This document shows, in pieces, positions 246 through 64,000 of a stretch of 64,000 bases of DNA (positions are counted from its first letter, which is position 1; each line of letters begins with the position of its first letter). The DNA lies in the NCBI GenBank assembly GCA_027605045.1, contig JAQFWX010000044.1, positions 82,111 through 146,110 of the forward strand. Reading direction: 5' to 3'. Made by a program: the position numbers and the translations under genes. The stretch comes from Phallus indusiatus (Eukaryota; Basidiomycota; Agaricomycetes; Phallales; Phallaceae). The notes under the pieces were generated by a model. The model was not told the origin of the DNA, ran no database searches, and saw only the letters and a program-made list of their open reading frames with translations.

Positions 246-3200
246 CTATCTTCTTCCAATCACTTCGTCGTTGAATAAATTCATAAATATCCTAAGACCA
301 TAGTCTATCAGGAACTGGAAAGAAGACAAAGGAATGTGGCACATACTTCTGGCTTAAATGACCCTCCATAACGGGCAACATCTCTAACAATCTGCGCTAA
401 ATCTTTAGCATCCGAAACAATAAATACATGTCCAAGCATCTTCAGGTTGGAAAAGTCGGAGGTAAGCTGAGGAACCTTCAGTGTGGACACGAAATTATAA
501 TATGCGTTCAAGTCGGCGATGACTTGAAATCCGCCTTCTAACGATATAATTTGTCGTTTGATATGCTTCTGTATTATCCTATACAACATTGTGAGACAAA
601 CTAAAAGGGAGAAAAAAGGATATACTAACGCGTGTAATCGTATTCCGACTTCGTAGTAAAATACCTCTAGAACATCCTTGCTTGTACTACCTCGCATCAA
701 TTTACAGTGTTTGTCAAGACAAGAAATCGCTTCCTGGCAGCCTTGGGTAGGCCGTAAGTCGAGAATCGTCCCATCTTGGGGGTAATATTCGCGAGGGCCC
801 GTCCGAGTTTGCACTATATGTTCAACCTAAGAGCAGCTATCAGAATTTTTTTGTTCGGACAAGAGATAAAATAGCAATCACTTGACTCATTAAAACCTCG
901 GTTCCTGCATTTAAACCTGCAGCCACAGCATCATCTAAAGCGTTTTCAAAGCGCTTCTTTTCCCGGACAACATTATTTAGGAAGTCGGTGCGATCGATGT
1001 GTGGAGCCTGGTAAAAGAAAACTTATCAGTATTCATTTAGTCAATGTGTCGGTAAATTCACCATTTCTTTATCAAAATACACTTGAATCATGGATTGGAT
1101 GGTATCACCAATATGTACCAATTCGAAGAACTGCAACAAAGGAGCCACACTTGTGTTTCCTTCATGTTCAGCGGGTTGATAGGTGCGCATCTGCTCTGTG
1201 GCTCTAATGCATCGCTGTAAATGCTGGTTTTCTTTGAAAAGATAGAGAGCGTTCATACCTTGAGAACCCAGGGGATATATGACGTTCACCAAGTGCTTGC
1301 AGCAAGAGTATAAATAGTTCTTCAATGGACTCGGTAACTTTCTGGCCGTAGTGTCCTGGATAGTGCTGAAAGGTCTCGACTCGTTTCAGGGCCTCGCGTT
1401 CTACCTGAATTAATTCAAGAACCACATCGAGCGAAAGGAGTAATTCAAGGCTGTCAAAAGTGACAACTGAAGCACCATCGGCCGAGGTTGTAGTAGTCAC
1501 GGTGGTTGAGGCGACAGATTCAGCAACAGATGCTGCACGAGGAGTTGATCATGATTTCCGACCGCCTAAATATTTTTACGTACCAGGCCTGACTTTCTTT
1601 GCAACGTTGTCTTCCTGATCTTGCTCATCCAGATAAAAATCGTTGTTCTGGGTATCTAGCTGTGTTGAATACCCATTTGCGGCTTGCGCTCCCCAACGCT
1701 GAGGGTTTAGCATGGCGATACCGTTAACAGCAGCAGTAGAACCTGTCACTAGTGCACCGACAGTGCGGGGAACAATTGTCACTGGGAGGAGTAAAACGTT
1801 GGTAAAGGATGCCAGAACATTGCGCTTTAACAAGGCAGGATTTTGTGAGCCGAGAAATCGTGCAGCTCCCTCAGCAGAATGACTTTCTGTTTGACTTGAA
1901 AGCTAAACGTAACAAATGAGCCCTAATAATAAACATGGTTTCGGAAGAAAAAAATCTAACCTTACGGTCCCAGCTTTTGCAGATTACGTCTAGCTGGGCT
2001 TTTAGACACTCAATTTCTTCGTCTAGATAATCATCCATATGTTCTTCAAACATTCTGTATCTGTTAACAATTAGGAATCTGCATGTTAATCGAGGCAAAA
2101 AAATTTACATTACGTCCTCAATCTCGACGGGTAACACGGATTCACCAGCACTCGTTGCAAAAGTACTAATTACTTTCAGGGACTGGGAGAAGCTTGCCGC
2201 TGTTGCCTTCAAAAATACTTCATTTGATATTTGCCGTGCTTGAGCCAATAAAGCTGCTATGTATTCGGAAATCTTGCACATTTGAGGTCAGAAAAAAAAG
2301 AGTTTGTATAAAACCAAAGCAACATACCACCTCCGTCGATAATTTTTCGGCAAAAAGCAGTGAGACATAAGCTACTGATGGGAAGACTCGTTCAATTATG
2401 GAGGTTTGCTCCTTGATAATTTGGACTAGACGGTTTACAAATCCATCCATGGCTTCAAAATTGAGGGTGTTTTCCTGACTGAGAATAAGTTAATCCTAGC
2501 GTCTTTAGGGATATAAGATATTACATACGTAAAGTTTTTCAAAGGATCCCATCTGCCTGTTTCGTAAAATACCTCTTGTTTCTCAATCCAGAAACGAGCT
2601 ATTTCCCATTCATTTTGACCATCCCGAACCTCCCAACTTGACCAAGCTGCCTCTTTCATCCGCATCTCGTCTTTAGAAGCGTCTCCAGCCTCAAAAGCCG
2701 TGAGGAGACCGGCATCAAATCGGTCAATGACAGTTTTGAGGGAATTGCGTAGATTTGACCAATTTCGATATGGTTGAATATTAGGGGAGAGATATAATAA
2801 TAGTATATGGAGAATCTGAGATTGAAGGCGCAGAGAAGCTACGGAGGGAAACATATTGGAGAGGACGAGATGCGGAGCGAAGCTGAAACTTGAGAGTAAA
2901 GTCTTTAAGAGGGCGTGCATTCTCTTGTATCGCTGACGAAACACATTTTGAGGTGGCGCGGTGGTTTCAGAGGTGACCGGGAGCGTGGAGGTATTATCGA
3001 AGCCGCCGACGAAATCTCCCATGTCTTCAAACTGCGATGAAACCACAGGGACTGAAGCAAAATCGCCGAATTCATCCTCGCCATCTAAATTCAGTGTTGG
3101 AGGAGCCATAGCACGCGCAGCGGCCGCTTTCTCGCTAACCCATCCCTCCAGCTCATCCAAAGCCTCTGCCAGCTTTTCGCGTCCAGCAAAAATATCGTTC

Positions 3201-3433
3201 CATCGGATCTCCCACAGTTTGTCGTCCAGATTCAGTTTAGAAAGCGCACGATTCCCAAGGGTATAAGCTGGTATTTCGTAAAGCGGTAAATAGGTAAATA
3301 TGAGCAGATGGATATCCCTAGGAAGGCGGCCAATGTATGATGTCAGGTCCGGTTTCGCTGAAGCTCGTGCACGAAAGCCTGAGGCTGTTGAGGCGTACAG
3401 TCTAACTGGCTCTAGAATTGTCCATTTATCCAT
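246..3433 (-). CDS. rcy1: Recyclin-1-like F-box / Sec10-like protein
   Basis: Multi-exon gene read from an ATG at 3433 to a TAG at 246-248. The first exon (3433-2529) carries an F-box about 20 residues in (IGRLPRDIHLLIFTYLPLYE) and then a spacer rich in acidic and Gly/Phe residues. Later exons resemble the exocyst Sec10 helical-rod family. Exons are joined by short GT-AG introns near 2528-2479, 2328-2280, 2098-2046 and 329-301. The C-terminal part (YYEVGIRLHALVYPF; KHIKRQIISLEGGFQ; FLIDYGLRIFMNLF) is the usual Sec10/Rcy1 ending. Yeast Rcy1 combines F-box and Sec10-like regions and acts in endosome-to-Golgi recycling, probably with Skp1. That role is inferred here from domain order. It shares a short intergenic region with the divergent F-box gene starting at 4018. 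Small internal exon borders are approximate. Confidence 0.85.
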
Positions 3434-4017
3434 GCTATGTCGCAAGGAGGAGATGTGTCGACAGTTTAGCTGTGCATGAAGAATGCAGGATGTGACGTGG
3501 TAACGCTGACGTGTGACCACAATATGCTTTCTATTTTGATCTCTACCTCATCATTCTCAAACGGCGTTCGTCCAGGAACTTCATGTATTTCGGCGAAGAA
3601 ACGCGTTTTCATGCTCGATACCCGCCTATGCATAAATTAAGGGTGCCTTTCGTGCCAACTTCACATAGCCATTCTCTCTCTACGTCATCTGAGTCAGGGT
3701 CCATCACAGCGACCAGGTGTCAATACGCGCAAGTGAAATAGTCTCATTCCTGGAATCGTCGGTCGCGCTATCAGCTGAAACGAAGATGTTCTCTTGTTTG
3801 TTTCACATATTTGTGATATCTATCCAGCTCTAGGTCTTTTTCTGTTTGTCTTAAATCAAGGCTGCCTGCGACGTTCTCAGGTCTTTGGCTTCTAGCGCTC
3901 ACCGTCTGGAATTTCTGGGTCCAGGGAGTCCTCTGCATAAGCGACCTCGGCGTATATATATATACCCTACACGGCGCCGCCATCGTTGTCAAAGCACTCG
4001 CCAGTCTCCTCCGTCCG
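3434..4017. promoter_or_regulatory. Divergent promoter region between two F-box genes
   Basis: About 584 bp between the ATGs of the recyclin-like gene (minus) and the F-box gene (plus). It contains a TATA-like run (GTATATATATATACCC) at about 3952-3967, some 55 bp upstream of the plus-strand ATG. The short frames here are not coding-like. That it serves both genes is inferred from their head-to-head arrangement. Confidence 0.5.
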
Positions 4018-5998
4018 ATGAACCGCTATTCCTACTGTTATCCCTACCCATCACAGCCACCAGTATGGCCCAAGCGAAACAAGACTTATATCATTCCTCT
4101 TAACCAACGCGTCCCAATTCCAGATGAAGACCGTGTGGGCGATTGGCTGATATCGATGCGTCATCTCCCAACCTTCGATCACCTCCCAGACGTTATCATC
4201 GAGCAAATCGGCTGTTTCTGTCTAGAACCAGCATCTCTCCTCAATCTTTCATCGACTTCTCGAAGGACGGCGCGCCTTCTTCGGACGATTGATTGCTGGC
4301 TAGATCATCATGCTGCGCGTCATTATGATACTGTTGTATTAAAATATAAAGCAGAGCGTGCTTCGCGAAAACCTGGTTTGCCCTATGGCGCTAACGGTTG
4401 GGGAGTTCTCGTTAGATCAGCTTTCGACAAATTCGAGTTTCCTGACGATGAATGGCAGACGCAGTGTTTGAAAGGTAAACGTACACCTCACGTTAAAATC
4501 CCTGAGCCAGACGCTATAACAAAATATCAACCGAGAGGAGAGTATTACATGAGGGTTATGTATGACCTAATTACAGAACACGGTATCTCCATTCTTTCTA
4601 CCACTAGTTCTCAAACTGAATATCACAAGAGTTCTGGAACCTTCAAAGACGTATGTGTTAACTTTTATACCCTTTCTAATCCAGACTAAAGTCCTTTTTG
4701 TTAGACAAATATCTAGCGGATGAAGCTATGTGTGTCCGAGTAAAAAGTAAACAAGGTCGCCTTTTCCAGGCCTTGATATGCGCTTCGCACTTTATAATAG
4801 GTATGTGGCAACATTTTGGGTTACTATCGTCCACACCTATATGCATCTGACGCGTATATCAAGGCCTATGGATAGCCCCCAGTCTAGTGATGAGTACAGT
4901 GCATGTCAACGTATACGTGCAGGAATCTATAAGACAGACTTTAGAAATCATTGGTGCTCGGTATACGTTGTCAACAAAAGAATCATTAACATACTCACTA
5001 CTTTGCTTGGTGAAATGCCTGGTTAACCATGTGTGATCCTTTTCCATTTTTGTAAATACTTTGTTTTATTGATTCATTTCATCCAGTCCTCCCAAGACCG
5101 TCTGAAATTATATCCATTCCCCCCTATGGGTCCTGAAATATGGCGTCAAGATGACGGTGACGTCCATCCAGAAGGCTTGGGTTGGGTCCCGCGTGTGCGG
5201 AAAATTTGGCAGGGGGAGGTGTTTGCCATGGGAACCTTCGTCAAAATAACGAAGGATCCCCATCCACAGGCGCAGACAAGCACCCCTGCCGAACCTTTAC
5301 GTACGTTGGGAACCAGCTAATTCAGTACAGAAACTGTACACTGATCACTGGATCTCAGGCTTGTATCTAAATTTCCGACCTGACGGCGTCATAGAAGGCA
5401 GAGGGGGATTACGGCGGATTTTTTACAATAACGTACGTTGACGCTTCTTGTTCTTCAAAGCACAAGGACTGATATAGTTGCGTTTTAGAGGTCACTATAA
5501 GAAATTATATGTTAGTATGGTGAAAGAATATAACGATGAAGAGGCGGATATGTATTATGTTACGGGTCATATGCTTCCGTGGGGCATCGCAGGACGCTGG
5601 GCGAATTCAGATGACGAGGACTTGACGATAGGGTATTGGTACATATGGATTTATGAGGTAGGCTTTTTATATAAACAAAACACCGTCAACCGTTGTGATG
5701 ACACATCCGCTTTGAGGGTGCACCAAAGATTCCTTGGCGATTTCTCACCAAATTTGAGGGAGTCGGGGAGGTACTTCACCCTGTTGAACCCTATTCGAAA
5801 AACCCAAATTGGTTTTTTGAGTACGAAGAAGCCGTTCGTAATCAGCTACATCGGGAGCGTTATCAAGGTGTGCTATCGGCTTCTGCCCTCAATCTTTTGA
5901 CTTCAACGTGACTCACCCGCTGTCAAGGCTGGTTTATCGATAAACCTGCTCTTCCGGAAAATACTCCTCTTCCGCCCGTTGACGCATTTGGTCTGTGA
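4018..5998 (+). CDS. F-box domain protein of unknown target
   Basis: Multi-exon gene from ATG 4018 to TGA 5996-5998. An F-box-like segment lies near residues 50-95 (FDHLPDVIIEQIGCFCLEPA, then a Ser-rich helix and an RTIDCWLDH ending). Likely exons are 4018-4652, about 4705-4800, a segment from about 5087 to 5300, about 5331-5433, 5477-5656, about 5719-5866 and about 5927-5998. The last exons read FRGHYKKLYVSMVKEYND, GYWYIWIYE, PNWFFEYEEAVRNQLHRE and ending PPVDAFGL. The region 4800-5086 has several possible splices and is not resolved. F-box proteins normally bind Skp1 and choose substrates for SCF ubiquitin ligases. The part after the F-box matches no repeat class I know, so the target is unknown. 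An in-frame Met at 4156 is an alternative start. Confidence 0.7.
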
Positions 5999-8927: not shown

Positions 8928-10569
8928 ATGAACCAACATCTCGCATTTACGTCTACTCCCCAGGGCGCAACGGCGTATCTAAGAACATTGCCGGCTATTC
9001 GTGAGCGTTGCAGCAAAGTGTATGACCTTGCTACCCAGGGCAAGCTCGAGTACTTCGAGTACGATCCAGACAAGGAAGACGAAGTGGTGGAATACTGCGT
9101 AGGTATAATCAAAGTGAGGCATTTGACTCTAATCACGTCAAGTATCTTTCTTATCACCAAGGTTTATTAGCGGGATTTCGGCTCTAATTATCAATCGGTG
9201 CGCATCTGAACAGCTGATCATCTTGTTAAGGACCCGTTGCAGGCCTTGCGCTCTAATACTTGAAAACAGATACGTTCTCATGGCCGGTGGCGTCATTTTG
9301 ACGTGGATAAGCCTAGGATGAGCGAACTTATGGGCGAATGGTCCCATAACAATGTTTCCGAGCCTGAGATCTGCAAGCGGGTTATCGACTTGTGCCTTGT
9401 TTCTGTTTTGCTGGACGCCGGGGCTGGAAACTCTTGGACCTACCGCGAGGAAGGCGGGAACGTTTATAGTCGATCTGAAGGTTTGGCTATCGCTAGTTTG
9501 GATATGTTTAAACGAGGGATGTTCTCGTCGGACAGAAGCCAACCATGTCGGGTTGATGGTGATTATTGTGCTTTATCGTCCGATAGCTCAAAAAGTTTGC
9601 TGATTCGCTCCAATTTAGCGGAAGGTTTGAGCAAGTTGTCTGGACAAGATATCGCAGTCGCAATGCAAGTGAATGAATCGAATCCGATGGCGGGAATCGA
9701 CGGTCGTGCAGCAATAATATTAAATCTATCACAGGCTTTGCGTACAAATACTACCTTCTTCGGATCGGATGCACGTCCCGGGAATCTCATCGGTTAGAGC
9801 TTATCTATTCTTGTCAAACTTAATCGAGATCTTATGTTATATTTCTATTGTTTTCATAGATTATCTCAAGTCGCAATCACTGTCCGCAGATTCATCAGAG
9901 TTCAAAGCACGCGTTGATGTGTCCAGCTTATGGACCGTTTTGATTGAAGGCCTAGCTCCTATCTGGCCTAGATCTCGCACGCAAATTGAGGGAGTTTCGC
10001 TCGGAGATGTTTGGCCCTGCAGCGCCTTAAAGAATAACCCGTACGGCAAAATTCAAGATGACGTCCAGAAAGAACTGGCTTCTCTCGTCCCGTTCCATAA
10101 ATTATCTCAGTGGTTGGCGTACAGTCTTGTCGAACCACTTGAGACAATTTTGAAGTGGAAAATAGACGGGCTAGATTTGTTGACCGGTCTTCCGGAGTAT
10201 CGTAATGGTGGCCTTCTTGTTGATTTCGGTGTCCTAAAATTACGGCCTGGCTCCATTGTCAACCTTCCCTCTAATCAGATTCCTAAACTGTCACCCTCCC
10301 ATCCAGCGATCATTGAGTGGCGAGCCATGACTGTTATAGAACTGTAGGCCACCCTTTTCGTCATTTAACTGAAGCGTCTGTGATTCAGCTTTTATATTAG
10401 AGACCGCATTGCAAATTTAATCCGGAAGAAACTTAATTCATATGATCTTACTCTTCTTCAAATTCTGGAAAGTGCTACATGGAAAGGAGGTCGAGAAATC
10501 GCCAAAGCTAAACGACCAGCAACCGGTGGTCCTCCAATTGACATTGAATCCGATGGCACTGTATTCTGA
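8928..10569 (+). CDS. urc4: Urc4/Urg3 family uracil-catabolism protein (DUF1688)
   Basis: Five exons (8928-9113, 9171-9197, 9270-9792, 9860-10343, 10401-10569) splice in frame to a 462-residue protein, a normal length for the family. Family hallmarks visible: RDFGSNYQSIRSHGRWRHFD near residues 63-82, ICKRVIDLCLVSVLLDAGAG with WTYREE after it, SEGLAIASLDMF, a DVWPCSAL stretch, and the closing GGPPIDIESDGTVF. URC4 is required in Lachancea kluyveri for the uracil degradation (URC) pathway with the GTP-cyclohydrolase-II-like Urc1; its fission-yeast homologue is urg3, induced by uracil. The biochemical step is not settled. The other URC genes are not in the window, so there is no URC cluster here. 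It converges on the sugar transporter with only about 156 bp between stop codons. Confidence 0.9.
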
Positions 10570-18707: not shown

Positions 18708-21700
18708 ATGGACCATCTCTTCGTCAACATACCGTCCTCGATACAGGCTCCCCCGCAGACACCACTGCCCCTCCTAGACCAGCAGAACCCATCCTGGAGC
18801 ACCGTCATCGACCGTGACGACTACGACGACGACTTCCCGGACACCCCCGGTCTTTCGGCTGGCCCAAAGAAAGCAAGACAGATAAGGAGACGAAGTTCCA
18901 AAGGTGTGTGGTTCCGTGGAAATACATTCTAGCTGTTGTGCCGGGCTCACAGTCATTTTAGCCTGTGATCAATGTCGTAAATCCAAGTGTAAATGCGAAC
19001 GGCACGAATCTCGCGATGAGCCTTGCAAAAATTGCGTCCTCCTGGGGACTCCCTGCACATTCTTGGGGCCCTCCAGAAAGCGAGGGCCTCCCAAGGGATA
19101 TATCGACGCAATAGAGAGCCGTTTGCATCAAATGGAGGCTCTGATGGGCACTCTACTCACCACCGAAGACAGAAGGGTGAGGTCAATCATTGCAGATTTG
19201 GCCGGCGACCCACTTGCCAGGGAAATTCTCGATCGTGTCGACGAAAGTCCCTTTGGCACTAGAGGAAAAGAAGGAGAAGATCGTGCTAGCCGCATATTGC
19301 GTACAACTCTCAACGTTTCAAACCCATTACCTTACTCAACACCCAGCGTCGAATGGCAAGAACATCTCAGAGAAAGGCTCAAAAAGGGGGAAATGGTTTC
19401 ATTCTCAGACAAAACTTCAGAATATGCGCCAAATTCAAGTATATTCGGACCTCCTCGTCTATTCCTCGATACTTCCGGAATTCCTCGCACGCCTTCCGGT
19501 GAGTCTCCAGCGCAGCGCCGGCGAATAAACTCCAACAGCTCTCCTCAACGTACGGCTCTCATTCAAGTCCAAGCTCGCACTCCATCTCTTTCACCAAGCC
19601 CGTCTGATGGACTCACTTCAACATCAGAAGACGACCTTCATAGCGCCATTGGCCAGTTATCACTCAACGAGGAGTCCCAAGTTCGTTATCACGGCGAAGC
19701 CTCGGGATTACATATTCTCGGTATGAGCGATCGTCTTGACAAACGCAATGAAGGCGGTCTTTGGAGGTTTCCGCGAGCCGGCGTCTGGCCTCGCGCTTCT
19801 AGAAGCGTTCTTAAAGTCGGTGTCGAGGATGTGGAAAATATTCTAGGTCCCGGAATCAACAATCTAGGTGATAGCGAAAAATCTATCAGGCTGCCAAGTA
19901 GAGAAGAGCAGGAGGAATTATTGGAAATGTATTTTGCATATGTCCACCCTGTTTTACCCGTCTTGATCGAAAAAGAATTCTGGAGAGAGTACAGAGGAGA
20001 GTAAGTCCAATATTATCTCCCTCACATGGTCTTTTTTCACGTGCAAGGCAACAAATGACATATTTTGATTTAGACCTGATCCGGAAATAAACAACAAACC
20101 ATCCCCTGCTCCTTCGTCTCATTCTGGCTCCTCCAGTTCTGGCTATAATTCGAAACAACCAACCAATCCTCACGTCAATAAAAACACCAATAATGTACCG
20201 AATCTCCTTTTATTAGCAATGTTTGCTATTGCCGCTCGCTATAAAACCGAGCCGGAGGATCCCTTACCCCTTAATGAAGGAGATATGTGGAATGCGGGAG
20301 ACGAGTATCTCGAAGATGCCAAGAACCTTCTGAGTGAGTTCTCTAATCTATCGCAAATCCAATCACCGTTTAACCTTTAAACGTTCTGATAGATTCGACT
20401 TATGCTCTTTCTCGTCCGACTACATGTCAAGCTCTCTTATTGCTCAGTTATCGCGAAATTGGTATAGGTGCCATGGCGCAGGCCTGGTTGTATGTCGGCA
20501 TGGCGGTCAGAATGGTAATTATCCACTTTGAAACTACGCAACTTTGATTTTTTTTTAAAAAATTACAAGGCGCAAGATTTGGGCATGCACCGGGCCGCAG
20601 ATAAATGGCAACGTACCGGAGCAGAGCTGTTTACCGAAATTGAAAAGCAGGTCCGTAGGCGGATTTGGTATTCGTGTGTCATTATGGATAAGTATTTGAG
20701 TACATATATCGGTAAGACAAATTTTTTAATGAAGATATTATCTTGGGTTTTTAATTCATTTTTAAAAAGGCCGTCCTTTGGCTATCTTTGAACGAGATTT
20801 TGACACGCATTTACCTCTTGAGGATCATGTATGTCTTTCATTTTTTCCTTGGAAGCTGAATAATTAAACCGTTTTATCAGAATGAAGAGATACAGTTGTG
20901 GTTGCGTCATAATTCGCCGTGTGCTGGGGAAGCTATACCCGATACCGAGCTTCCTTCGTCTTACGTGCCAGTTCCATCCCGACTCATCTCATGCTTCAAC
21001 GCCGCTTCAAGACTATGTGCGTATTTTTACATGTTTCTCATATGATAAATATCTGACGTGCTCGTTTCTATGAAGCTGGTATCCTTTCTAACATTGTCGA
21101 AACGATTTACGCAGTTCAGCCTCCAAAAACCCAGAATCGGCTAGCAGAATTAGCAATCTTCGAAAAGAGATTGGACAGATGGTATATGGACCTTCCGAAA
21201 CACCTCGAGTTGCCGGCTTCTACCACTCCCGCTGAACTAAGCTCCCGACCTCTTCCTCCTCCACATGTTCTTACTCTACATATGCAATATTGGTGTTCAG
21301 TTCTCCTGGCTCATCGTCCTTTGTGAGTATCATTCAACAACAAAATTTTTTACTTCCAACTAAATGGCGTTCATTCAATTAAATAGTATGAGAAGAAAAC
21401 TCCAGTAAGTAATGCAAAAAATAGACGTGAAAGAAGCACACTGATAGTGATACCTATCATCCGTGTAGACCCGGTCAAGATGTAGCAGCTCAATGCCCGA
21501 TTGAGAGTGACACTCCTGATCATGCTAAGTGCACTAGAGCTTTCGAACTATGTGCCACAGCCGCGAATAAAATTAGCAGCATCGGTGAGTCCAAAAAAAG
21601 CTGCCCTGACAGTACTATCATTGTTTGCTCATCGTGTCATATAGTTGGTATCTACAAGCAAAACTTTTGTCTGCGTCGTGCGCCGGCGTTCCTCACATAC

Positions 21701-45789: not shown

Positions 45790-48700
45790 ATGGCTACTTC
45801 GACGGAAGGTATCATAATATCTGGTAATTCTGGAATTTTTCATTCAAGCTCCATTTTATCTCATCTGGCAATAAAGATGTTCGGTTGACAAAACCTTCAC
45901 CCCCATGGAAATGCAACCCAAAGGTTCAGATCGTGATCAGGTACGGCAGCCAGGCGAGGAAAAGCAAAAAAATTGCGTTCAAGAAAAGTGACCCTTGCAT
46001 AATCTGGGACGAGTCTTTCTTTCTGTATGTCGCAGACTCCAATCCTCTTGATGTCAACTTTTCAACTTACATCTTCAGCGTCGGTGAACTTACTGACGAC
46101 ACTCGCATCACATTAACCATTGTCCGGGTCTATCCATTTATAATACGAAACACCGCAATTGATTCGTGCGAACATCGGGTCATTGAGCTCCTCAAGATGC
46201 AAAGCAGCTCTGGTTAGTCCAATCATCAAAAGCATCGCCGTTAACCGTAGTACTTATACGATCGTAGGGTCATGTGAATTAGACATTGCTGGAAAGTGTC
46301 AATTGACATTCAAGATTGAGAAATCACCCGACGTTGTTGCGAGCCCGGTACAACAAGTAATAGCCGCATCAGAAATCCTAAGGAAAACAGGAGTCTTATC
46401 TGAGGTTTCAAATTCTATCACCTCCGCGGTGCAGGTGTATAATGATAATGAGGAGACGTGGTCGTCGTTCCTGGACAAATTTCAGGTTTTTATGGGGGTA
46501 GTAGATAAAATTTCCGAGGTAGTTCCGTTACCAAACATACTTTCGTCTTTTCTAAAGTTATTTTCCAGATAAGCCCGTATGTGAAGGTGGCTTGGAGTGT
46601 ACTGTCTGTTATTCCTAAGGTAGAACCATGTTATTTTTCTCGTTGACATACCAAGCCTCATATATTTTATTAGACAATCATTGCGAAAAAAAATCGCGAC
46701 GATAAGATTAAACAGTTATGTGACAAACTGGAGGACGTTTACAACTACATTACGGATGCGAAACGGCTACCTGAGCTTACCAAGACCCAGTCTAAGACAC
46801 TTTCCAAGGTGGTTCAGCAAACCACTGAATGCGCGTATTTTATACGAGCATACTGTACCGAAGATACAGGTTATTATTCTCTCGATATCTTATAATTGTG
46901 CAATCAAGTCTGATTTTGAGCCTTAGTCCAGAACACGTTGAAAGGAATCATGGGAAGTGCGGACCGCAAGATCCAAGACTTCAACGACACGTTTGACCGC
47001 CTTATGGGGACTATGAAAAATTCGGTTAATCTTGAAACGAGCATTGTGACACTTCGTGTGAAGAAGGATGTTAATGAATTAAGTATGTTTACATTAATCA
47101 AATACCATCATCACTTATTCAAAATCTTGTCATTTCGCTGCAAGTTAATTTGAATTTACTCAAGGAGATGCGCTATGACGGCAGTTCCCCTCAATCTGGA
47201 AAACGATGCTCACCTGGAACTCGCAAAATGTTGATCGAGGATATATTGAAACGCATCAACGATGACGCATCGCCACAGATTCTTGTCTTGAGTGGACAAG
47301 CGGGGGTTGGAAAGTCAACGATGGCGCATACCATCGCTGGAATGTTCAAAGAACAAAACCGACTCGGGTCCATGTTCTGTTTCGATAGGAGTACCCCGAA
47401 CAAGCGTAACTGTCTTTTCAGCACCATATCGCGTGACTTGGCAGATGGTGATGCATCATGGCGAAAGAAATTGGTGGAGATCATTGAATTGGACACCGCG
47501 GTTCGGGGGACTGGGGATCTCAAAACACAATTCGATCAATTTATCATCAAGCCTTCCGAAAACACGGCAACCATTGGACCGGTGATTATCGTTGTGGATG
47601 CACTGGACGAGAGCGGGAGCCGTGATGAGCGCAAGGAGATTCTGGAAATCCTCCTTGGCAGGTGGTCCGAGCTTCCGAAGAATTATCGTCTGATTGTTAC
47701 CACCCGCCCAGAACAGGACATCGAGGCTCAGCTTGCATGTCAAAAGCTTGGATGCAAACGGATGGAGGATGTCAATGCGGAGGAAACGCGTCGTGATATC
47801 GAAGCCTATGTCTCGGAGCGTCTGGATTCAATATCGTCAACTCTGGATAGCATAGACATAAACTGGAGCAGTATACTAGCCAAGCACGCGCAAGGTCTTT
47901 TCCAATGGGCTGAGACAGCTTGCAGGTTCATTGATCCTACCGTCACAGACCAAGAGCTCATACAGGAAAAATGGAAAACTTGTGTATCAAACTCTTCCTC
48001 GTCACTATATGAACTATATCATCAAATTATATTGAGTCAACCAGAATCTCGGCGCCCTAGCTTCAAAGAAAGGCTCAAGACGGTAGTAGGCGCTATTATA
48101 ACTGCGCAAGAGCCCCTCTCAATTCACGCGCTACAAAATATCTTTGGGAATATTAAAAATATCAAGTCGACACTCGCCCCATTCGGTTCATTGTTTTCTG
48201 GCGTTCATGACTCGTCTACTCTGGTACAACCTCTTCACACCTCGTTATTCGACTTTTTCAAGGCCGAAAAAATCTCTGAGAAAGACGAACAAGACGGTGA
48301 AAAAATAAATGAATACTACATCAACACGTCAGATCAAACCCAGATGACACTCGGTTGTCTCTCCATGATGAATAGGATGCTCTGCTTCAACATTTGTCAC
48401 CTTGAGACATCACACCAGTACAATTGGGATGTGCCCAATTTGGAATCGCGTGTCAAGAAAGCCATTCCGGTCCATTTGTCGTATTCGTGTCGTTTTTGGA
48501 CCTTTCATCTTCGGTCTTCGCCTGTTAGCGGAGAACTGATTCGTGCAGTCCGGACATTGATGGATGACAAACTGATGTATTATTTTGAGGCACTCAGTTT
48601 GTTGAGAGTGTTCCAGGTTCAAGTGTTCCAGGTTGATGATGAGCAATGTTCCGTAGCAATGCAGGATATAGTGAATTGGTGTAAAGTGAGTGATCCTCTA

Positions 48701-51220
48701 TCTGTTATATTTTTTATAGCTGAATGAGGTGGTAGGATGCAGATACTGACCTAGCTCAAGACGCAATGGACGCATGGGAGTTTGCATTTGATTTTAGAGA
48801 CATGATGAATGAGAGCACACCACATATCTATCTATCGGCCCTTCCCTTTACCCCTCGCAGTTCGTTTGTATCCAGAAAGTATCTTGAAAGGTTCCCTAGA
48901 CTGTTCACGTTCGATGTTGGTCAACCTATCGGCTCACGCAGAATCGGATTCATGCGAAGAAGTAACGGTAGAGTGTTTGTTTTATCTCCGAAAGGCGAAT
49001 ATATCGCAAGTGCAACCCGATCCAATCCTTGTGTATGGAACTACGTAACGGGGGAGGAGCATAATACGGCTCACGAACGTCACTCTTATTCCCATATTTG
49101 CAACATGGTATTTTCCCATGATGGTGAATTGGTGTACTGTTGTTTTAGAAACGGTGATATTCTAATATGGAATATGGGAACAAAAGAGGTGGAGATAGAG
49201 AGATATGCGAAGATAGTCGGTGACAAGTGTCATCATTGTGCCATCTCTTCGGACGGGGGCTTTATATTATGGTCCACAGAAGAGGGACTGCACCTACTAT
49301 TCGATCGAACAAGTCGTCAGGTGGTCAAACGCTTCGAAGAGGAGTGTTATGTTCCTCACCTTTCTCCCAACGGAAACTGGACTGCTTTCTATCGCCGCTC
49401 CGAAAAGCAACTGTACATACGGAATACTAGAAACGAGACGCAGCACGTCGTGCCCTGTCATAATTTATGGCGTCTGAAACTCACTAACAACTACATTACA
49501 TTCAGCCAAAGCAAAGGTTACGCCCCGATAGAGATCTGGGATCTACGGACAAGCACTAAAGTCACCGAAATTCAACACGGGCCGGGCGTCGTACACTTTT
49601 GTTTGTCCCCTGATGATCAATATATCCTATCTACCTCTGCCGAAATGTACTCAATTTGGAGCGTGTCTACGGGAAAACTAATCAGTCGATCCTATCCAGA
49701 CGATAACATTGGCTGTTTAGGGTTCTCACACGATTCAAAATCAATTGTGCTGTTGACAGGCAGTGCCACATCTTTGTACGCGACAATCCGCATTCATCCA
49801 TGGGATGAATTTATAGAACCGATCCATCCGCACAACAATGAAATTGAGGAAGTGCGTGCAATCTGGCTACGGGGTTCATATCTCATTCTTCAGTATATGA
49901 CAATTCTCGACGAGTATCGCCTCCGAATCTTAGATATGATGACAACAATCTTTGACACCGACCTGCGAGTCTATGGAGATGTTGATGTTTATCCTGAAGA
50001 AGAAAATGTCTGCGTGGCGTACATTAGCAGGCGGGGACTCTGTCTTTGGAAGGAAAAAGAAGGCGAGATTGTTATAGATGGATCAGGCCGTTCAAACATC
50101 AGCCTCGTGTGTTTGGACAACTATCTTATTTCCGGACGCGAAAAAACCATTTCAATATGGGATAGTCGTACCCACAAATTGGTTCGTGGTCCAATCGACT
50201 TGCCATATGAACCGGGAAGCCTTCTACCCGTGCGAGATACCCGCTTTGCTCTCGTATATGGCAGATATCGTGATAAAATGGAAATTCGGGAATGCGAATC
50301 AGGTGACAGAGTAGGGGAAATGGTTACATTCGAATCAAAGTCTATCGTTTCCCCGATTGTCGTTTCTGCCAACAGGGAACATATCATATACGTTTCAAAG
50401 GAGCGTGTCGATACACTAGATCTAACAGGAGCAATAGTGAGCTCAATTTCATTCTCAACCTTTCGTTCAGCCGCTTCAGTGCGACGATCTCTCAATGGAA
50501 AGTATATCGCATGGGTTGATGATGGCGAGATCAAACTCTTTGATGTGGACACCGAAACCTTGCTCACTGGCCCATCGCTTGATCGACGAGCCACCAACGT
50601 TTGGTTCTCCGATGACTCAAAACGTATTATAATAGGGTCTGGCGCAGATCGTTGGTCGAGGGTCGAGCTTCTGGATGTCTGGGACATACAATCCAAAAAC
50701 ATTGTCGCCGAAACAATTCGATGCTCGTTCGGAACAGGTGAACAGATAAAAACGCTAATTTTAAACAAAAAACATCTAATAGTTTTGGATAAATCGGCTG
50801 ATGTTTGTTATGTCTGGGACTTGGATGCATATGAGATAATGTCTCCTCTGTACAAGGCTCCTCCATTGCTCACCGCCGGTGGTTCCTATACCAAGGGGTA
50901 AGTATGGTATCATTTATATTCAACGTGATTCACTCAAGGAGATACTTAGAGCATCGGTATCCAACAAGACAGAGATATTGGATTACGCATTAATGGCCTG
51001 GAAAAAAGCCTCACTTCCTGCTTTCCCTAGTATAAATATTAGAGACGGATGGGTTCGGGGTTTGCAGGATGAACTTTTGTTTTGGCTCCCAAAAAAGATG
51101 AGAGACCGGCTTTGGTTTCCATGCATGACGTATATGTCGCATCGAAAGTTCACAAAACTAAATTTCACAAATTTTGTACATGGTACCAATTGGACAGAAT
51201 GTGGACCTAGAGACGACTAG
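45790..51220 (+). CDS. STAND/NLR protein: C2 - helical - NACHT - WD40 (copy 1)
   Basis: Nine exons: 45790-45808, 45877-46212, 46268-46518, 46569-46619, 46674-46869, 46927-47082, 47145-48685, 48736-50897, 50950-51220. They splice in frame to about 1,660 residues. N-terminal C2-like domain (VQIVIRYGSQARKSK; DPCIIWDESFFLYV). Helical region typical of Agaricomycete STANDs (YVKVAWSVLSVIPKT; ADRKIQDFNDTFDRLM). NACHT: P-loop SGQAGVGKSTMAHT near residue 390, Walker B IIVVDALDES near 483, sensor-like RLIVTTRPEQD. The C-terminal 700 residues form a degenerate WD40 propeller (NGDILIWNMG; EIWDLRTSTKV; TISIWDSRTHK), closed by a short conserved tail. Such proteins act as intracellular sensors, in immunity or non-self recognition; the ligand is unknown. 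A 15 bp duplication (VFQVQVFQV) near 48615 is absent from copy 2. Confidence 0.9.
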
Positions 51221-57290: not shown

Positions 57291-57881
57291 TTATTCTTCT
57301 GACTGATCTGGCTCCGGCTGCTGAGATCGGTTTCTCCGTGGCAGTGGAAGAATGATGATAGGATTAGGAATCGATGGTCGCCTCAGATCTTCGAATAGAT
57401 CGCTTTCCACTTCTTGATAAGTGGGTAAAGGGTGCGTACGAGCTTCAGAAAAGTCTGGGGGAGGTGGCATGGCGGAAAAAGGGGCATCAACAAATAAGAA
57501 CTGTACGTAACCATAGAACCAGTGACGAAAAACCAATCTCCATATGACTACTCCATCCCGTTGAGCAGTTAGGAACCCAACAAACTCATACGACTCGTGC
57601 ATGACATTGATGTTGGTTCGTTCGTATAGAGTTAAGGCTCGTGGGTATCCTAGTTCTAAATCGTCATATGGAACAGTTACTTCCATCGCAGGGGGTGGTG
57701 TCGTGGGGAGTACAGTATTAGGATCGATGTTGATTTCGGGGACAAGAGTGTTGTAAACGCGGATAATGGTGAGGAAGCCAGGATTTTGACCGGTTCTGAG
57801 AGAAGAACGGAACGTAAAGGGGAAGAAAGGAAGTTGTAAATATGGAATGGGATTTTGTGGGTTTTCGTTATTATTCGACAT
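57291..57881 (-). CDS. Hypothetical protein, tandem pair member 1 (196 aa)
   Basis: Single-exon gene from ATG 57881 to its stop at 57291. No signal peptide or transmembrane helix. An N-terminal beta-like domain (FLTIIRVYNTLVPEINIDPN; MEVTVPYDDLELGYPRALTL; HESYEFVGFLTAQRDG; YGYVQFLFVDAPFS) is followed by a Pro/Glu/Arg-rich tail (SDLFEDLRRPSIPNPIIILP). The domain resembles that of the neighbour at 57987-58643: both show IDxNTxLP or DxDTHLP, a DL..P segment, a V.FLT or VNIYLT strand and a closing FVDAPFS or VLDVPS. No known family. It lies in a block inserted between NLR flanking repeats. Lack of introns is unusual for this window. Confidence 0.6.
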   Translation of the reverse strand: MSNNNENPQNPIPYLQLPFFPFTFRSSLRTGQNPGFLTIIRVYNTLVPEINIDPNTVLPTTPPPAMEVTVPYDDLELGYPRALTLYERTNINVMHESYEFVGFLTAQRDGVVIWRLVFRHWFYGYVQFLFVDAPFSAMPPPPDFSEARTHPLPTYQEVESDLFEDLRRPSIPNPIIILPLPRRNRSQQPEPDQSEE

Positions 57882-57986: not shown

Positions 57987-58643
57987 CTAGGTTCGTCCAA
58001 AAATGTTGGAACAAACTCGTCGGATATTTCGGAAGGATCGTTTGGTGGGAGAAGAGGGGTTGGAACGATTAGGGAAAGACTGCATTGGAGAAGTGTCGAA
58101 TGATAAGGGGGAGAATCGCGATGGTGGGGTATCTTCTGGAATAGGATTCGTGGGTCTGGAAGGGCTAAGTTTTTGAGTACTCATGCCCTTCATGATTACC
58201 CATCGACTTGGCACGTCCAGGACTAAGAACGTAAACTTGAATCCTTCTTGAGTTGCTAACCATATTCGATACGAGTCTCGTTTTGCTGATTCTGGTGTCA
58301 AATATATGTTAACAACTGTAAACCAGTTTAATTGCTCCTCGATATAAACTTTCTCTCCAAACATGATCCCGGGGTGAACCAGATCCGAACTTCTGCACTG
58401 ACGGATAACGATAGGTGAAGGTTCCTTTGGTAAGTGCGTGTCCCGATCGAGGTCGAGGCTTGCATATTGGGAACTATAGATATACAAAGTTGTAAAAAGA
58501 TCCAAATCGTATGTCCTGGGACTGGAAGGCGAATAGCGAAAAGGAGATATAGACTCATTATCAGAAGGAATCGGTGATTCGGTGGAGGAATCTGGAATTG
58601 GCAAGGAGATTGATGAGGAGTAATGGAACGAAAACGTAGTCAT
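57987..58643 (-). CDS. Hypothetical protein, tandem pair member 2 (218 aa)
   Basis: Single-exon gene from ATG 58643 to its stop at 57987, same strand and 105 bp upstream of its partner. A Ser/Pro-rich N-terminus (SSTESPIPSDNESISPFRYS) leads to a domain of about 100 residues (YDLDLFTTLYIYSSQYASLD; IMFGEKVYIEEQLNWFTVV; GFKFTFLVLDVPSRWVIM), then a Ser/Pro/Arg tail ending in a basic RNIRRVCSNIF helix. Similar in outline to the 57291-57881 protein, suggesting an old tandem duplication. No known family; function unknown. Confidence 0.6.
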   Translation of the reverse strand: MTTFSFHYSSSISLPIPDSSTESPIPSDNESISPFRYSPSSPRTYDLDLFTTLYIYSSQYASLDLDRDTHLPKEPSPIVIRQCRSSDLVHPGIMFGEKVYIEEQLNWFTVVNIYLTPESAKRDSYRIWLATQEGFKFTFLVLDVPSRWVIMKGMSTQKLSPSRPTNPIPEDTPPSRFSPLSFDTSPMQSFPNRSNPSSPTKRSFRNIRRVCSNIFGRT

Positions 58644-59339: not shown

Positions 59340-62300
59340 ATGGCAACTTCGACGGAGGGTATCATAATTTCTGGTAACTTCGTTCTTCACTCAAGCTCCG
59401 TTTTATCTCATCCGGGACTGAAGATGTTCGCTTGACTAAACCTTCACCCCCATGGAAATACAACACCAAGGTCCAGATAGTGATCACGTACGGCAGCGAG
59501 ACGAGGAAAAGCAAAAAAACTGCGTTCAAGGAACGTGACCCCTGTATAATCTGGGACGAGTCTTTCTTTTTGTATGTCAAAGACTACAATCCTTTTGATT
59601 CCAACTTTTCACTTTACATTCTCAGCGTTGGTGAACTTACTGACGACACTGTCATCACTTTTACCATTGTCCGGGTCTATCCATTTATAATACGAAACAC
59701 CGCAATTGACTCGTGCGAACATCGGGTCATTGACCTCCTTAAGATGCAAAACAGCTCTGGTTAGTTCAATCATCGAAAGCATTGCCGTTAATCTAACCCT
59801 TATACGATTGCAGGCTCATGTGAATTAGACGTTGTTGGAAAGTGTCAATTAACATTCAAGATTGAGAAATCACCCGACGTTGTTGCGAGCCCGATACAAC
59901 AAGTAATAGCCGCATCAGAAACCCTAAGGAAAACAGGAGTCTTATCTGAGGTTTCAAATTCTATCACCTCCGCGGTGCAGATGTATAATGATAATGAGGA
60001 GACGTGGTCGTCGTTCCTCGACAAATTCCAGGTTTTTATGAGGGCAATGGATGAAATTTCCGAGGTAGTTCCGTTAGCAAACATACCTTCGTCTTTTTTA
60101 AAGTTGTTTTTTCAGATAAGCCCGTATGTGAAGGTGGCTTGGAGTGTACTGTCTGTTATTCCCAAGGTAGAACCATGTTATTGTTCTCGTAGACATACCA
60201 AGCTACATATATTTTATTAGACAATCATTGCAAAAAAAAATCGCGATGACAAAATTAAACAGCTATGCGACAAACTGGAGGACGTTTACAACTACATTAC
60301 GGATGCGAAACGACTACCCGAGCTTACCAATACCCAGTCTAAGACACTTTCCAAGGTGGTTCAGCAAACCACTGAATGCGCGTATTTTATACGAGCATAT
60401 TGTGCAGAAGATGCAGGTTGTTGTTCTATGATGTCTTGTAATTGTGAAATCATGTCTGATTTTCGAGCGCTAGTTCATAACATACTGAAAGGAATCATGG
60501 GGGGTGCGGACCGCAAGATCCAAGACTTCAACGACACGTTTGACCGCCTTATGGAAAACATGAAAAATTCGGTCAATCTTGAAACGAGTATTGTGACACT
60601 TCGTGTGAAAGAAGGTGTTGATAAATTAGGTACGTTTACATTAATCAGATATCATTATCAGTTATTCAAAATCTCGCCGTTTCGCTATAAGACCTCAAGG
60701 ACATGCTCTATGGCGGCAGTTACCCTGAACCTGGGAAACAATGCCTACCGGGAACTCGCAAAACGTTGATCGAAGATATACTGAGAGATATTAACAACGA
60801 CGCATCGTCACAGATTCTCGTCGTGAGTGGACAAGCGGGAGTAGGAAAGTCAACGATGGCGCATACCATCGCTGGAATGTTCAAAGAACAAAACCGACTC
60901 GGGTCCATGTTCTGTTTCAACAGGAATTTCCCAAACAAGCGAAATTGTCTTTTCAGCAGCATATCGCTTGACTTGGCAGATAGCGATGCTTTGTGGCGAG
61001 AAGGATTGATCAGGATTGTCACTGATAACACTGCGATTCGGAAGACCGAGGATCCCGAAACGCAATTCAACGAATTTATTGTCAAGCCTTCTAAAAACGT
61101 GGCGACTATTGGGCCGGTAGTCATCGTTGTGGACGCGCTGGACGAAAGTGGAGACCGTAGCGAACGTGAAAAAACCTTGAGAATCCTCTTTTGCAGATGG
61201 ACGGAACTTCCGAAGAACTATCGTGTAATTGTGACCACGCGCCCTGAACAGGACATCGTGTATCAATGCGAAAAATTCGGTATTTCACGTAAACAGATGG
61301 GCGATATTGACTCGGATGAAACGTATCACGATATCAAAGCCTACGTCTCGAATCGTCTGGATTCGATATCATCAACTCTGGACGGTATAGACAAAAACTG
61401 GCGCAGTATACTGGCCAAGAACGCGCAAGGCCTTTTCCAATGGGCTCAGACAGCTTGCAGGTTTATTGATACTACCGTCACGCATCCAGAACTCATACGG
61501 GAAAACTGGAAAACTTGCGTGTCGAATTCTTCGTCGTCGCTATACAAGCTATATCATGAGATTATATTGAGCCAACCAGAATCCCGGTACCTCTGGTTTA
61601 AAGAACAGTTCAAGGTGATCGTAGGAGCAATTGTAACTGCGCGAGAGCCCCTCTCAATCCACGCGCTACAAAATATTTTGGGGGATGATATTAAAGATAT
61701 CAGGTCTATACTCAGGCCATTCGGTTCATTCTTTTCTGGCATTTATGACTCGTCTACTCTGGTGCAACCTCTTCACACCTCGTTATTCGATTTTTTCACG
61801 ACCGAAAAATTCTTTGGAAAAGACGAAGAAGACGGCGAAAAAATAAATGAATACTACATCAACACGTCAGATCAAACCCAGATGACACTTGGTTGTCTCT
61901 CCGTGATGAATAGGATGCTCTGCTTCAACATTTGTCACCTTGAGACATCACACCTGCGCAACGAGGATGTGCCCAATTTGGAATCACGTGTCAACGAAGC
62001 CATTCCGGTCCATTTGTCGTATTCGTGTCGTTTTTGGACCTTTCATCTTCGGTCTTCGCCTGTTAGTGGAGAACTGATTCATGCAGTCCGGACATTGATG
62101 GATGACAAACTGATGTATTATTTTGAGGCACTCAGTTTGTTGAAAGTGTTCCAGGTTCATGATGAGCAAGGTTCCTTAGCAATGCGGGATATAGTGAATT
62201 GGTGTAAAGTGAGTGATCCTCTATCTGTTATATTTTTTATAGCTGAATGAGGTGATAGGATGCAGATACTGACCTAGCTCAAGACGCAATGGACGCATGG

Positions 62301-64000
62301 GAGTTTGCATTTGATTTTGGAGACGTGATGAATGAGAGCACACCACATATCTATCTATCGGCCCTTCCCTTTACTCCTCGCAGTTCGTTTGTATCCAGAA
62401 AGTATCTGGAAAGGTTCCCTAGACTGTTCACGTTCGATGTTGGTCAACCTATCGGCTCACGCAGAATCGGATTCATACGAAGAGGTATCGGTACAAAGAT
62501 TGCTCTTTCTCTGAAAAGCGAATATATCGCAAGTACAACCATATCCAAACTTTATGTATGGGACTACGTAACGGGGGAGGAGCATAATACGGCTTACGGA
62601 CGTCACTCTGATTCGTATGTTTGCAACATGGTATTTTCCCATGATGGTGAATTGGTGTACTGTTGTTTTAGAAACGGTGATATTCTAATATGGAATATGG
62701 GAACAAAAGAGGCGGGAATAGAGAGATATGCGGAGATAGTCGGTACCAAGTGTCATCGTTGTGCCATCTCTTCGGACGGGGGCTTTATATTATGGTCCAC
62801 AGAAGGGAGACTGCACCTACTATTCGATCGAACAAGTCGTCAGGTGGTCAAACGCTTCGAAGAGGGGTATTCTGATCCTGCCATTTCTCCCAACGGAGAC
62901 TGGATTGCTTTCCGTCGCTACTCCGAAAACCAGCTGTACATATGGAATACTAGAAACGAGACGCAGCACGTCGTGCCCTGTCATAATTTATGGCATCTGC
63001 AACTCACTAACAACTACATTGCATTCAACCAAAGCGAAGGTTACGCCCCGATAGAGATCTGGGATCTACGGACAAGCACTAAAGTCACCGAGATTCAACA
63101 CGGGCCGGGGGTCGTACACTTTTGTTTGTCCCCTGATGATCAATATATCCTATCTACCTCCGCCGAAATGTACTCAATTTGGAGCGTGTCTACGGGAAAA
63201 CTAATCAGTAGATCCTATGCAGACGATAACATTTGCTGTTTGGGGTTCTCACACGATTCAAAATCAATTGTGCTGTTGACAGGCAGAGTCACATCTTTGT
63301 TCAAGACAATCCGCATTCATTCATGGGATGAATTTATAGAACCGATCCATCCGCACAACAATGAAATTGAGGAAGTGTGTGCAATCTGGCTGCGGGGTTC
63401 ATATCTCATTCTTCAGTATATAACAATTCTCGACGAGTATCGCCTCCGAATCTTAGATATGATGACAACAATCTTTGACACCGACCTGCGAGTCTATGTA
63501 GATGTTGATGTTTATCCTGAAGAAGAAAATGTCTGCGTGGGGTACATTAGCAGGCGGGGACTCTGTCTTTGGAAGGAAAAAGAAGGCGAGATTGTTATAG
63601 ATGGATCAGCCCGTTCAAACATCAGCGTCGTGTGTTTGGACAACTATCTTATTTCCGGACGCGAAAAAACCATTTCAATATGGGATAGTCGTACGCACAA
63701 ATTGGTTCGTGGACCAATCGACTTACCATATGAACTGAGAACCCTTCTACCCGTGCGAGGTACCCGCTTTGCTCTCGTATATGGCAGATATCATGATAAA
63801 ATGGAAATTCGGGAATGCGAATCAGGTGACAGAGTAGGGGAAATGGTTACATTCGAATCAGAGTCTATCTTTTCCTCGATTGCCGTTTCTGCCAACAGGG
63901 AACATATCATATGCGTTTCAAAGAATAGTGTCGATACACTAGATCTAACAGGAGCGAGAGTGAGCTCGATTCGATTAAGATACCTTCGTACAGACGCTCC
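59340..64000 (+). CDS. STAND/NLR protein: C2 - helical - NACHT - WD40 (copy 2, partial)
   Basis: Paralogue of the gene at 45790 with the same exon layout: short first exon 59340-59358, next exon from 59424, NACHT exon ending at about 62208, WD40 exon from about 62259 that stays open to the window end. C2 domain VQIVITYGSETRKSK and DPCIIWDESFFLYVKD; NACHT P-loop SGQAGVGKSTMAHT, Walker B IVVDALDESGD, RVIVTTRPEQD. The WD40 part is present to a point matching about residue 1430 of copy 1, so the 3' end lies outside the window. No frameshift or premature stop was found in the spliced frame. Differences from copy 1 are spread through NACHT but cluster in the WD40 part and there mostly change amino acids. 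Confidence 0.88.

Follow-up and report, generated by a model that had tools for sequence, protein, structure and literature searches.

Two tandem copies of a spliced gene lie within the 64,000-nucleotide window of Phallus indusiatus DNA analysed here (the whole stretch, JAQFWX010000044.1, C145:82111-146110). Both are NACHT-WD40 fungal NLRs, copy 1 having a tentative C2-like N-terminus, and the evidence supports positive selection on their WD40 exon. The data further support a concentration of this selection on the top side of the two propellers predicted for the exon, in the d-a loops, the b-c turns and the neighbouring strand ends, with constraint prevailing on the bottom side and in the NACHT exon. 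The copies also recombine, and both gene conversion and unequal crossing over fit the exchange observed. These genes belong to a large tandem NACHT-WD40 NLR family, in which positive selection on the top face, exchange between copies and a changing ligand probably maintain a germline repertoire of specificities.

Gene structure and tandem arrangement

The changes under study sit in the WD40 exon of copy 1, and copy 2 starts about 13.5 kb downstream. The parts of the two genes are listed below, the splice sites of copy 1 being predicted from sequence.

45882..46214, + strand: tentative C2-like N-terminal segment of copy 1; open frame, exon limits not fixed
47078-48724, + strand: NACHT ORF of copy 1
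47150..48686, + strand: NACHT exon of copy 1, with P-loop GQAGVGKST; NPHP3_N and NACHT matches; omega against copy 2 0.39
48687..48742, + strand: predicted intron between the NACHT and WD exons; ends GTGAGT..CAG; frame open after joining
48736-50898, + strand: WD ORF of copy 1
48743..50897, + strand: WD40 exon of copy 1; open frame; Beta-prop_NWD2_C match; dN/dS taken against copy 2
50950..51219, + strand: predicted C-terminal exon of copy 1; joined frame open up to the stop
60703..62250, + strand: NACHT ORF of copy 2, aligned with copy 1
62289..63998, + strand: WD40 exon of copy 2, running past the window end; complete in locus L004 (C145:142k)

Joined from the NACHT exon onward, copy 1 forms a 1320-residue open frame. 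Its NACHT exon possesses the P-loop of a NACHT domain and matches the Pfam families NPHP3_N (3.7e-21) and NACHT (5.4e-9), each above cut-off. A C-terminal repeat sensor, the other hallmark of a fungal NLR, is provided by the protein of the WD exon (P0002), which matches Beta-prop_NWD2_C above cut-off (37.2 bits, cut-off 33) and gives a double-propeller model with a fold match to Apaf-1. The N-terminus is less clearly defined: the Pfam C2 match (E 0.097, 13.3 bits) lies below the cut-off of 22, the joined N-terminal stretch, with guessed exon limits, gave weak DUF matches alone, and no HET domain was matched in the N-terminal pieces of copy 1 that were searched, where exon limits were likewise guessed. 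Protein searches returned few clear relatives (P0004, 39%; P0054, 31%).

A search of the organism's own assembly (67.2 Mb, 206 contigs) located the WD exon in at least 63 places (67 rows, with four split copies merged) and the NACHT exon in at least 82. On C145, cluster 1 has five WD copies (128-185 kb); on contig C24 it has ten WD places, fragments included (1036-1160 kb). Segments 9300-10400 and 18900-20000 of the window, both single-copy, are each present exactly twice at 99% identity, once on C145 and once, in inverted orientation, on C24. The assembly therefore very probably contains two haplotypes of the cluster-1 locus. A DUF1688 exon occupies 9769-10347 and a Zn(2)-Cys(6) cluster ORF 18904-20004; the surrounding DNA is present once each on C145 and C24. 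A search with the DUF1688 neighbour gave, among its named hits, the agaricomycetes Rhizoctonia solani (57%), Trametes maxima (56%), Tulasnella (55%) and Meripilus (55%). Elsewhere in the window, ORFs 2435-3520 and 4018-4689 have weak F-box-like matches below cut-off, the former also a marginal match to Sec10_HB.

The next two tandem copies, at C145:142160 (L004) and C145:153243 (L003), are nearly identical (WD dS 0.00, NACHT dS 0.01) and therefore derive from a very recent duplication. Copies 1 and 2 are separated by a repeat element running from about 56419 to at least 58700 (roughly 56.4-58.8 kb), which contains 63 of the 70 match rows from the genome search of this region, spread over many contigs; its ORFs at 57291-57881 and 57987-58643 have no Pfam match. 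The next tandem unit lacks the element and is 2.5 kb shorter (spacing 11.08 kb against 13.55 kb). Broken or truncated WD frames are found at C24:906k (L036), C24:851k (L039) and C24:1133k (L018), and the frame is open at C145:307k, the counterpart of C24:851k.

Selection in the WD40 exon and its position on the predicted propellers

In a codon alignment of copy 1 with copy 2, the latter completed from its locus beyond the window (C145:142k), replacement changes are gathered in patches. Three of these had been described in the earlier note, with estimates of about 16 replacement against 2 silent codons, 12 against 1 and 5 against 0, all of which are reproduced to within a single codon; the fourth is new.

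48972..49115, + strand: replacement patch 1; 17 replacement against 2 silent codons
49330..49430, + strand: replacement patch 2; 12 replacement against 1 silent codons
49470..49530, + strand: replacement patch 3; 5 replacement against 0 silent codons
50335..50478, + strand: replacement patch 4; 50-codon window with 19 replacement against 2 silent changes

The corresponding estimate for the P-loop region (47260-47320), about 3 against 4, also holds, with 3 replacement against 3 silent codons, the latter representing 4 silent changes by the Nei-Gojobori method. Across the whole WD exon there are 109 replacement against 20 silent changes (dN 0.070, dS 0.040), an omega of 1.76 for this pair, designated A-D among the copies below; the NACHT exon has a dN of 0.138 and a dS of 0.355. 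The 3' flank at 51.2-51.8 kb differs by 0.5-1.0%, less than the silent sites of the WD exon. The claim that stretches between the patches are nearly identical at silent sites requires some qualification, as silent divergence there is low but not nil (pS 0 to 0.088 across all 32 WD-exon windows). Similarly, low silent divergence around the patches holds for the WD exon and the extreme end of the NACHT exon, but not for the NACHT window from 47525, where pS reaches 0.70.

Site models were fitted to further paralogues with purpose-written code, the sole check of which is the null simulations given below. The fetched copies represent 30 of the 63 WD places, plus one (j) from outside that list. Cluster 1 contributed 11 of its 13 fetched copies, with the omission of C, which is almost the same as D, and of M, whose WD ORF is short; copies A, B, D, E and F form a close set that is a subset of cluster 1 and hence not independent of it. 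Cluster 2 contributed 8 of 10 copies, with g and j omitted for broken WD frames, although its pairwise tables include the open ORF of g and, from j, the NACHT exon alone. All eight copies of cluster 3, on contig C162, were used, two of them being near-identical. Cluster-1 copies I, J, K and M have one TAA within the aligned NACHT stretch and NACHT ORFs of 517-557 residues. Codons adjacent to gaps were masked, three per side in the close-set models and two per side in the cluster 1, cluster 2 and block-tree models; the face-wise maximum likelihood and C162 models used every ungapped column, with no gap-side masking.

In the close set, the WD exon has an M0 omega of 1.465 and an M1a/M2a LRT of 105, against 0.478 and 16 for the NACHT exon. 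The same order is seen in cluster 1 (WD omega 0.895, LRT 98; NACHT 0.449, LRT 37) and cluster 2 (WD 0.907, LRT 129; NACHT 0.369, LRT 9.9), and the WD exon of C162 has an omega of 0.78 with an LRT of 190. A small number of sites in the NACHT exon are thus selected too, with far weaker support than in the WD exon. Because recombination can mimic positive selection, separate trees were used for four blocks of the WD exon, and the summed LRT was then 138 for the close set, 115 for cluster 1 and 145 for cluster 2. In all 60 null simulations for the close set, run under M1a with block trees, the LRT did not exceed 10.2 and M0 omega ranged from 0.49 to 0.78. Positive selection in the propeller, as proposed in the earlier note, is therefore borne out by models with more paralogues (LRT 105 against a null maximum of 10.2), and the omega near or below 1 that would have spoken against it is not found for the close set or for pair A-D. 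In the wider sets the WD-exon averages do fall below 1 (0.895, 0.907 and 0.78), and the excess there belongs to a class of sites and, in two of the three sets, to the top face.

The distribution of the selected sites was examined on an AlphaFold2 model of P0002, built from 10 aligned sequences (P0002 and nine others), with a mean pLDDT of 71 and a pTM of 0.48. Its strand order corresponds to a 7-blade followed by an 8-blade propeller:

48943..49800, + strand: first of the two predicted propellers, with 7 blades (P0002 residues 60-345); AlphaFold2 strands, blades assigned in this analysis
49843..50847, + strand: second of the two predicted propellers, with 8 blades (P0002 residues 360-694); AlphaFold2 strands, blades assigned in this analysis, two a-strands placed by hand

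The best of many PDB matches to the model is Apaf-1 from the human apoptosome (5juy_A, E 5.4e-24, TMq 0.57), at an identity of 14%. The 15 blades are on average 21% identical to one another (maximum 37.5%), and a search for tandem repeats inside the WD exon found none, nor was there any sign of internal repeats being shuffled.

Sites were called selected at a FUBAR-like posterior above 0.9 or an M8 posterior above 0.95. Strand and loop labels were set before any face count and the assignment of half strands was chosen after the loop result had been seen; the loop-only test and cluster 3, for which the labels were frozen, are therefore the cleaner tests. Within loops alone, selected sites account for 6 of 62 top positions against 0 of 122 bottom positions in cluster 1 (p 0.0012), and for 10 of 83 against 2 of 112 in cluster 2 (p 0.0048). 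With half strands included, the counts become 17 of 193 against 3 of 289, with no sites outside the propellers, and 20 of 215 against 4 of 267, with two sites outside; in a label-shift control they were reached in 1 of 634 and 17 of 634 shifts, respectively. Scatter of the changed sites through the structure, which would have counted against a binding surface, is thus not what is found, as 17 of 20 and 20 of 26 selected sites are on the top side of the two modelled propellers. Nine selected positions are common to clusters 1 and 2, against 3.0 expected (p 0.0015), or four against 1.1 at a stricter threshold (p 0.02).

Mean omega of the top face is 2.21 in the close set, 1.64 in cluster 1 and 1.54 in cluster 2 (LRT against 1: 26.5, 34.4 and 19.2), compared with 0.95, 0.73 and 0.65 for the bottom face, the close-set value of 0.95 being indistinguishable from 1. 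In C162 the top-face mean of 1.10 is not significantly above 1 (LRT 1.2; bottom 0.60), but the M1a/M2a LRT is 120 for the top face and 2.8 for the bottom. In the three other sets the bottom-face M1a/M2a LRT is 8.2, 14.0 and 9.4, and this side is therefore not entirely free of selected sites. The pair of copies 1 and 2 alone has 81 replacement against 11 silent changes on the top and 22 against 6 on the bottom.

In the close set and clusters 1 and 2, the top face exceeds the bottom in silent divergence too (pS 0.086 against 0.047 in the close set, 0.180 against 0.148 and 0.223 against 0.183 in the other two). Selection on replacements alone fails to explain this rise (48766-50901). Hitchhiking alongside the selected sites would produce it, as would a local excess of mutation; neither would raise omega above 1.

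Exchange between copies and alternative explanations

Recombination among the copies has left cluster-1 genes with NACHT and WD exons whose nearest relatives differ: the WD tree is rejected by the NACHT data (AU p 2e-82), as is the NACHT tree by the WD data (5e-73). For cluster 2 the WD tree is again rejected by the NACHT data (9e-9), whereas the NACHT tree is not rejected by the WD data (0.11). The mosaic is visible in copy A, which is near N and B over most of the NACHT exon (0.5-7.5% difference, 47.0-47.8 kb) and near D from about 48.2 kb through the 3' flank. Blocks of the WD exon also conflict with one another, with 10 of 12 cross-tree tests rejecting at p < 0.05 in cluster 1 and 2 of 12 in cluster 2. 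Tree conflict, mosaic tracts and block tests together indicate that the exchange is exon-scale, with smaller events inside. The gene conversion invoked in the earlier note is upheld to the extent that copies do exchange sequence (tree conflict, mosaic divergence); unequal crossing over fits this evidence as well.

That recombination among the copies is real lends some substance to the proposal that no positive selection has occurred and that recombination of unlike histories, relaxed constraint or alignment error made the pattern, as does the lack of gap padding in the face-wise models, in which misalignment beside indels could add false top-loop changes. This proposal is nevertheless highly improbable. 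Relaxed constraint cannot produce an omega above 1, the signal survives block-wise trees, the simulated nulls stay far from the observed 105 and 1.465, the top and bottom of one and the same exon differ, and 301 of 309 top codons of the close set are ungapped. Relaxed constraint and recombination artefact were rejected as main causes on the block trees, the face contrast and the null simulations. A different source of the changes would be targeted mutation or hypermutation, by RIP or a deaminase, with selection filtering only weakly. The raised silent divergence of the top face in the close set is what a mutation hotspot, or hitchhiking, would leave, and A-G differences are frequent in the WD exon. 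However, transitions make up 0.62 of the differences in the WD exon, below the 0.73 of the NACHT exon, and top-face variation falls preferentially at the first and second codon positions (91, 84 and 55 variable sites for the three positions), unlike the outcome of mutation alone. Judged from the substitution spectrum alone, hypermutation is not favoured, and we consider it very unlikely.

A third explanation accepts the receptor and its selected surface but identifies the driver as conspecific non-self, in allorecognition (vegetative incompatibility) of the het-d/het-e kind, and not viruses, bacteria, mycoparasites or hosts. The nearest functional precedent is indeed allorecognition (PMC1805685, PMC12881547). 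Cluster 1 also differs strongly between the two contigs, five WD copies standing against ten places that include fragments; no C145 copy there has a close C24 partner (minimum dS 0.138 for the NACHT exon and 0.066 for the WD exon), yet the two single-copy flanks are 99% identical. In cluster 2, by contrast, two of the four fetched C145 copies have a close, allelic-looking C24 partner (NACHT dS 0.003 and 0.069), the other two having none (0.267 and 0.141). The sole allelic WD pair with open frames, c/e, has a dN of 0.008 and a dS of 0.027, with 13 replacement against 14 silent changes overall and 4 against 6 on the top face. As this pair lacks a replacement excess, the selection signal is one between paralogues, which suits a repertoire directed at outside ligands at least equally well, in data from one individual. 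Allorecognition is thus a serious candidate that we rate at somewhat below even, and the excess between paralogues leans slightly towards a repertoire against outside ligands.

Proposed role and comparison with known receptors

Under the favoured model of a germline repertoire, the top faces would bind a ligand of ever-changing identity, either a non-self molecule or a self protein altered by non-self. Binding would release the NACHT domain, with oligomerisation as in Apaf-1, and the oligomer would trigger defence or regulated cell death via the N-terminal domain. Exchange would distribute sensor exons among the copies, and selection would retain replacement variants on the binding face, giving rise to the repertoire. 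Propellers often bind partners on their top face, and fold and precedent suggest the same role for it here; Apaf-1 and het-e/het-d are the basis on which NACHT activation and cell death are proposed. The interpretation put forward in the earlier note is thus supported, apart from the ligand. A more specific formulation, to which we would give an even chance, is that recombination passes the unrepeated double propeller of 15 blades, as one whole, among tandem NLRs, at least 60 Apaf-1-like sensors in number, and that overlapping top-face positions of both propellers are selected anew in separate clusters, making the family a propeller counterpart of the plant NBS-LRR repertoires and setting it apart from het-e/het-d, where repeat units are shuffled.

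The result amounts to a residue map of the probable ligand site as modelled. It links fungal NLRs, in a testable way, with the Apaf-1 mode of ligand binding and suggests that some large basidiomycete NLR families, at least, are active recognition repertoires. In ascomycetes, WD-NLRs, selection on the propeller top and concerted evolution are already known from earlier reports (PMC4986451, PMC1805685, PMC2873952). In these reports, selection on fungal NLR sensors has been described for genes with near-identical repeat units, the shuffling of which supplies variants (PMC1805685, PMC2873952), and 21.6% of NLR WD repeats are of this near-identical type (PMC4986451). What differs here is the unrepeated 15-blade sensor, in which replacements on one face combine with exchange at the scale of exons to create diversity; no report of the same pattern in a basidiomycete was found among literature titles and abstracts, a coverage outside which most subscription journals lie.

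The closest parallel is the HNWD family of Podospora anserina (het-e, het-d and het-r), likewise NACHT-WD40 multigene NLRs with selection on the propeller top and exchange between members (PMC1805685, PMC2873952). In het-d and het-e, codons under selection map to the top side, within the d-a loop and b-c turn, and specificity is determined by the WD region (PMC1805685). The present family shares both a positively selected top face and recombination among its members. HNWD genes, however, have near-identical blade repeats that are shuffled and an N-terminal HET domain, whereas here there are 15 unlike blades, the N-terminus is tentatively C2-like and the tracts exchanged are of exon scale. Internal WD-repeat conservation, above 85% in HNWD, has a mean of 21% and a maximum of 37.5% here, and the N-terminal pieces searched, with guessed exon limits, contain no HET match. 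Among Basidiomycota, a C2 domain has been reported in the NLRs of a few species and WD repeats prevail (PMC4986451). Set against such C2-NACHT-WD NLRs, the C2 match described here lies below cut-off, and no selection analysis of genes of this kind was found in the literature consulted on them (PMC4986451).

Apaf-1, the best fold match, similarly carries tandem propellers behind a STAND ATPase. Its tandem propellers have 7 and 8 blades. The ATPase of Apaf-1 is an NB-ARC (PMC12881547), in contrast to the NACHT present here, and a direct contact between HET-C and the WD domain of het-e/het-d has been suggested on the model of Apaf-1 and cytochrome c (PMC12881547). Apaf-1 has a single conserved ligand, whereas the face described here is diversified. 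Plant NBS-LRR genes also form tandem clusters, although their sensor is an LRR and not a propeller, and the sensors are not homologous. The sensor domains of plant NBS-LRR genes exhibit positive selection, concerted evolution and recombination, as do those described here (PMC2873952).
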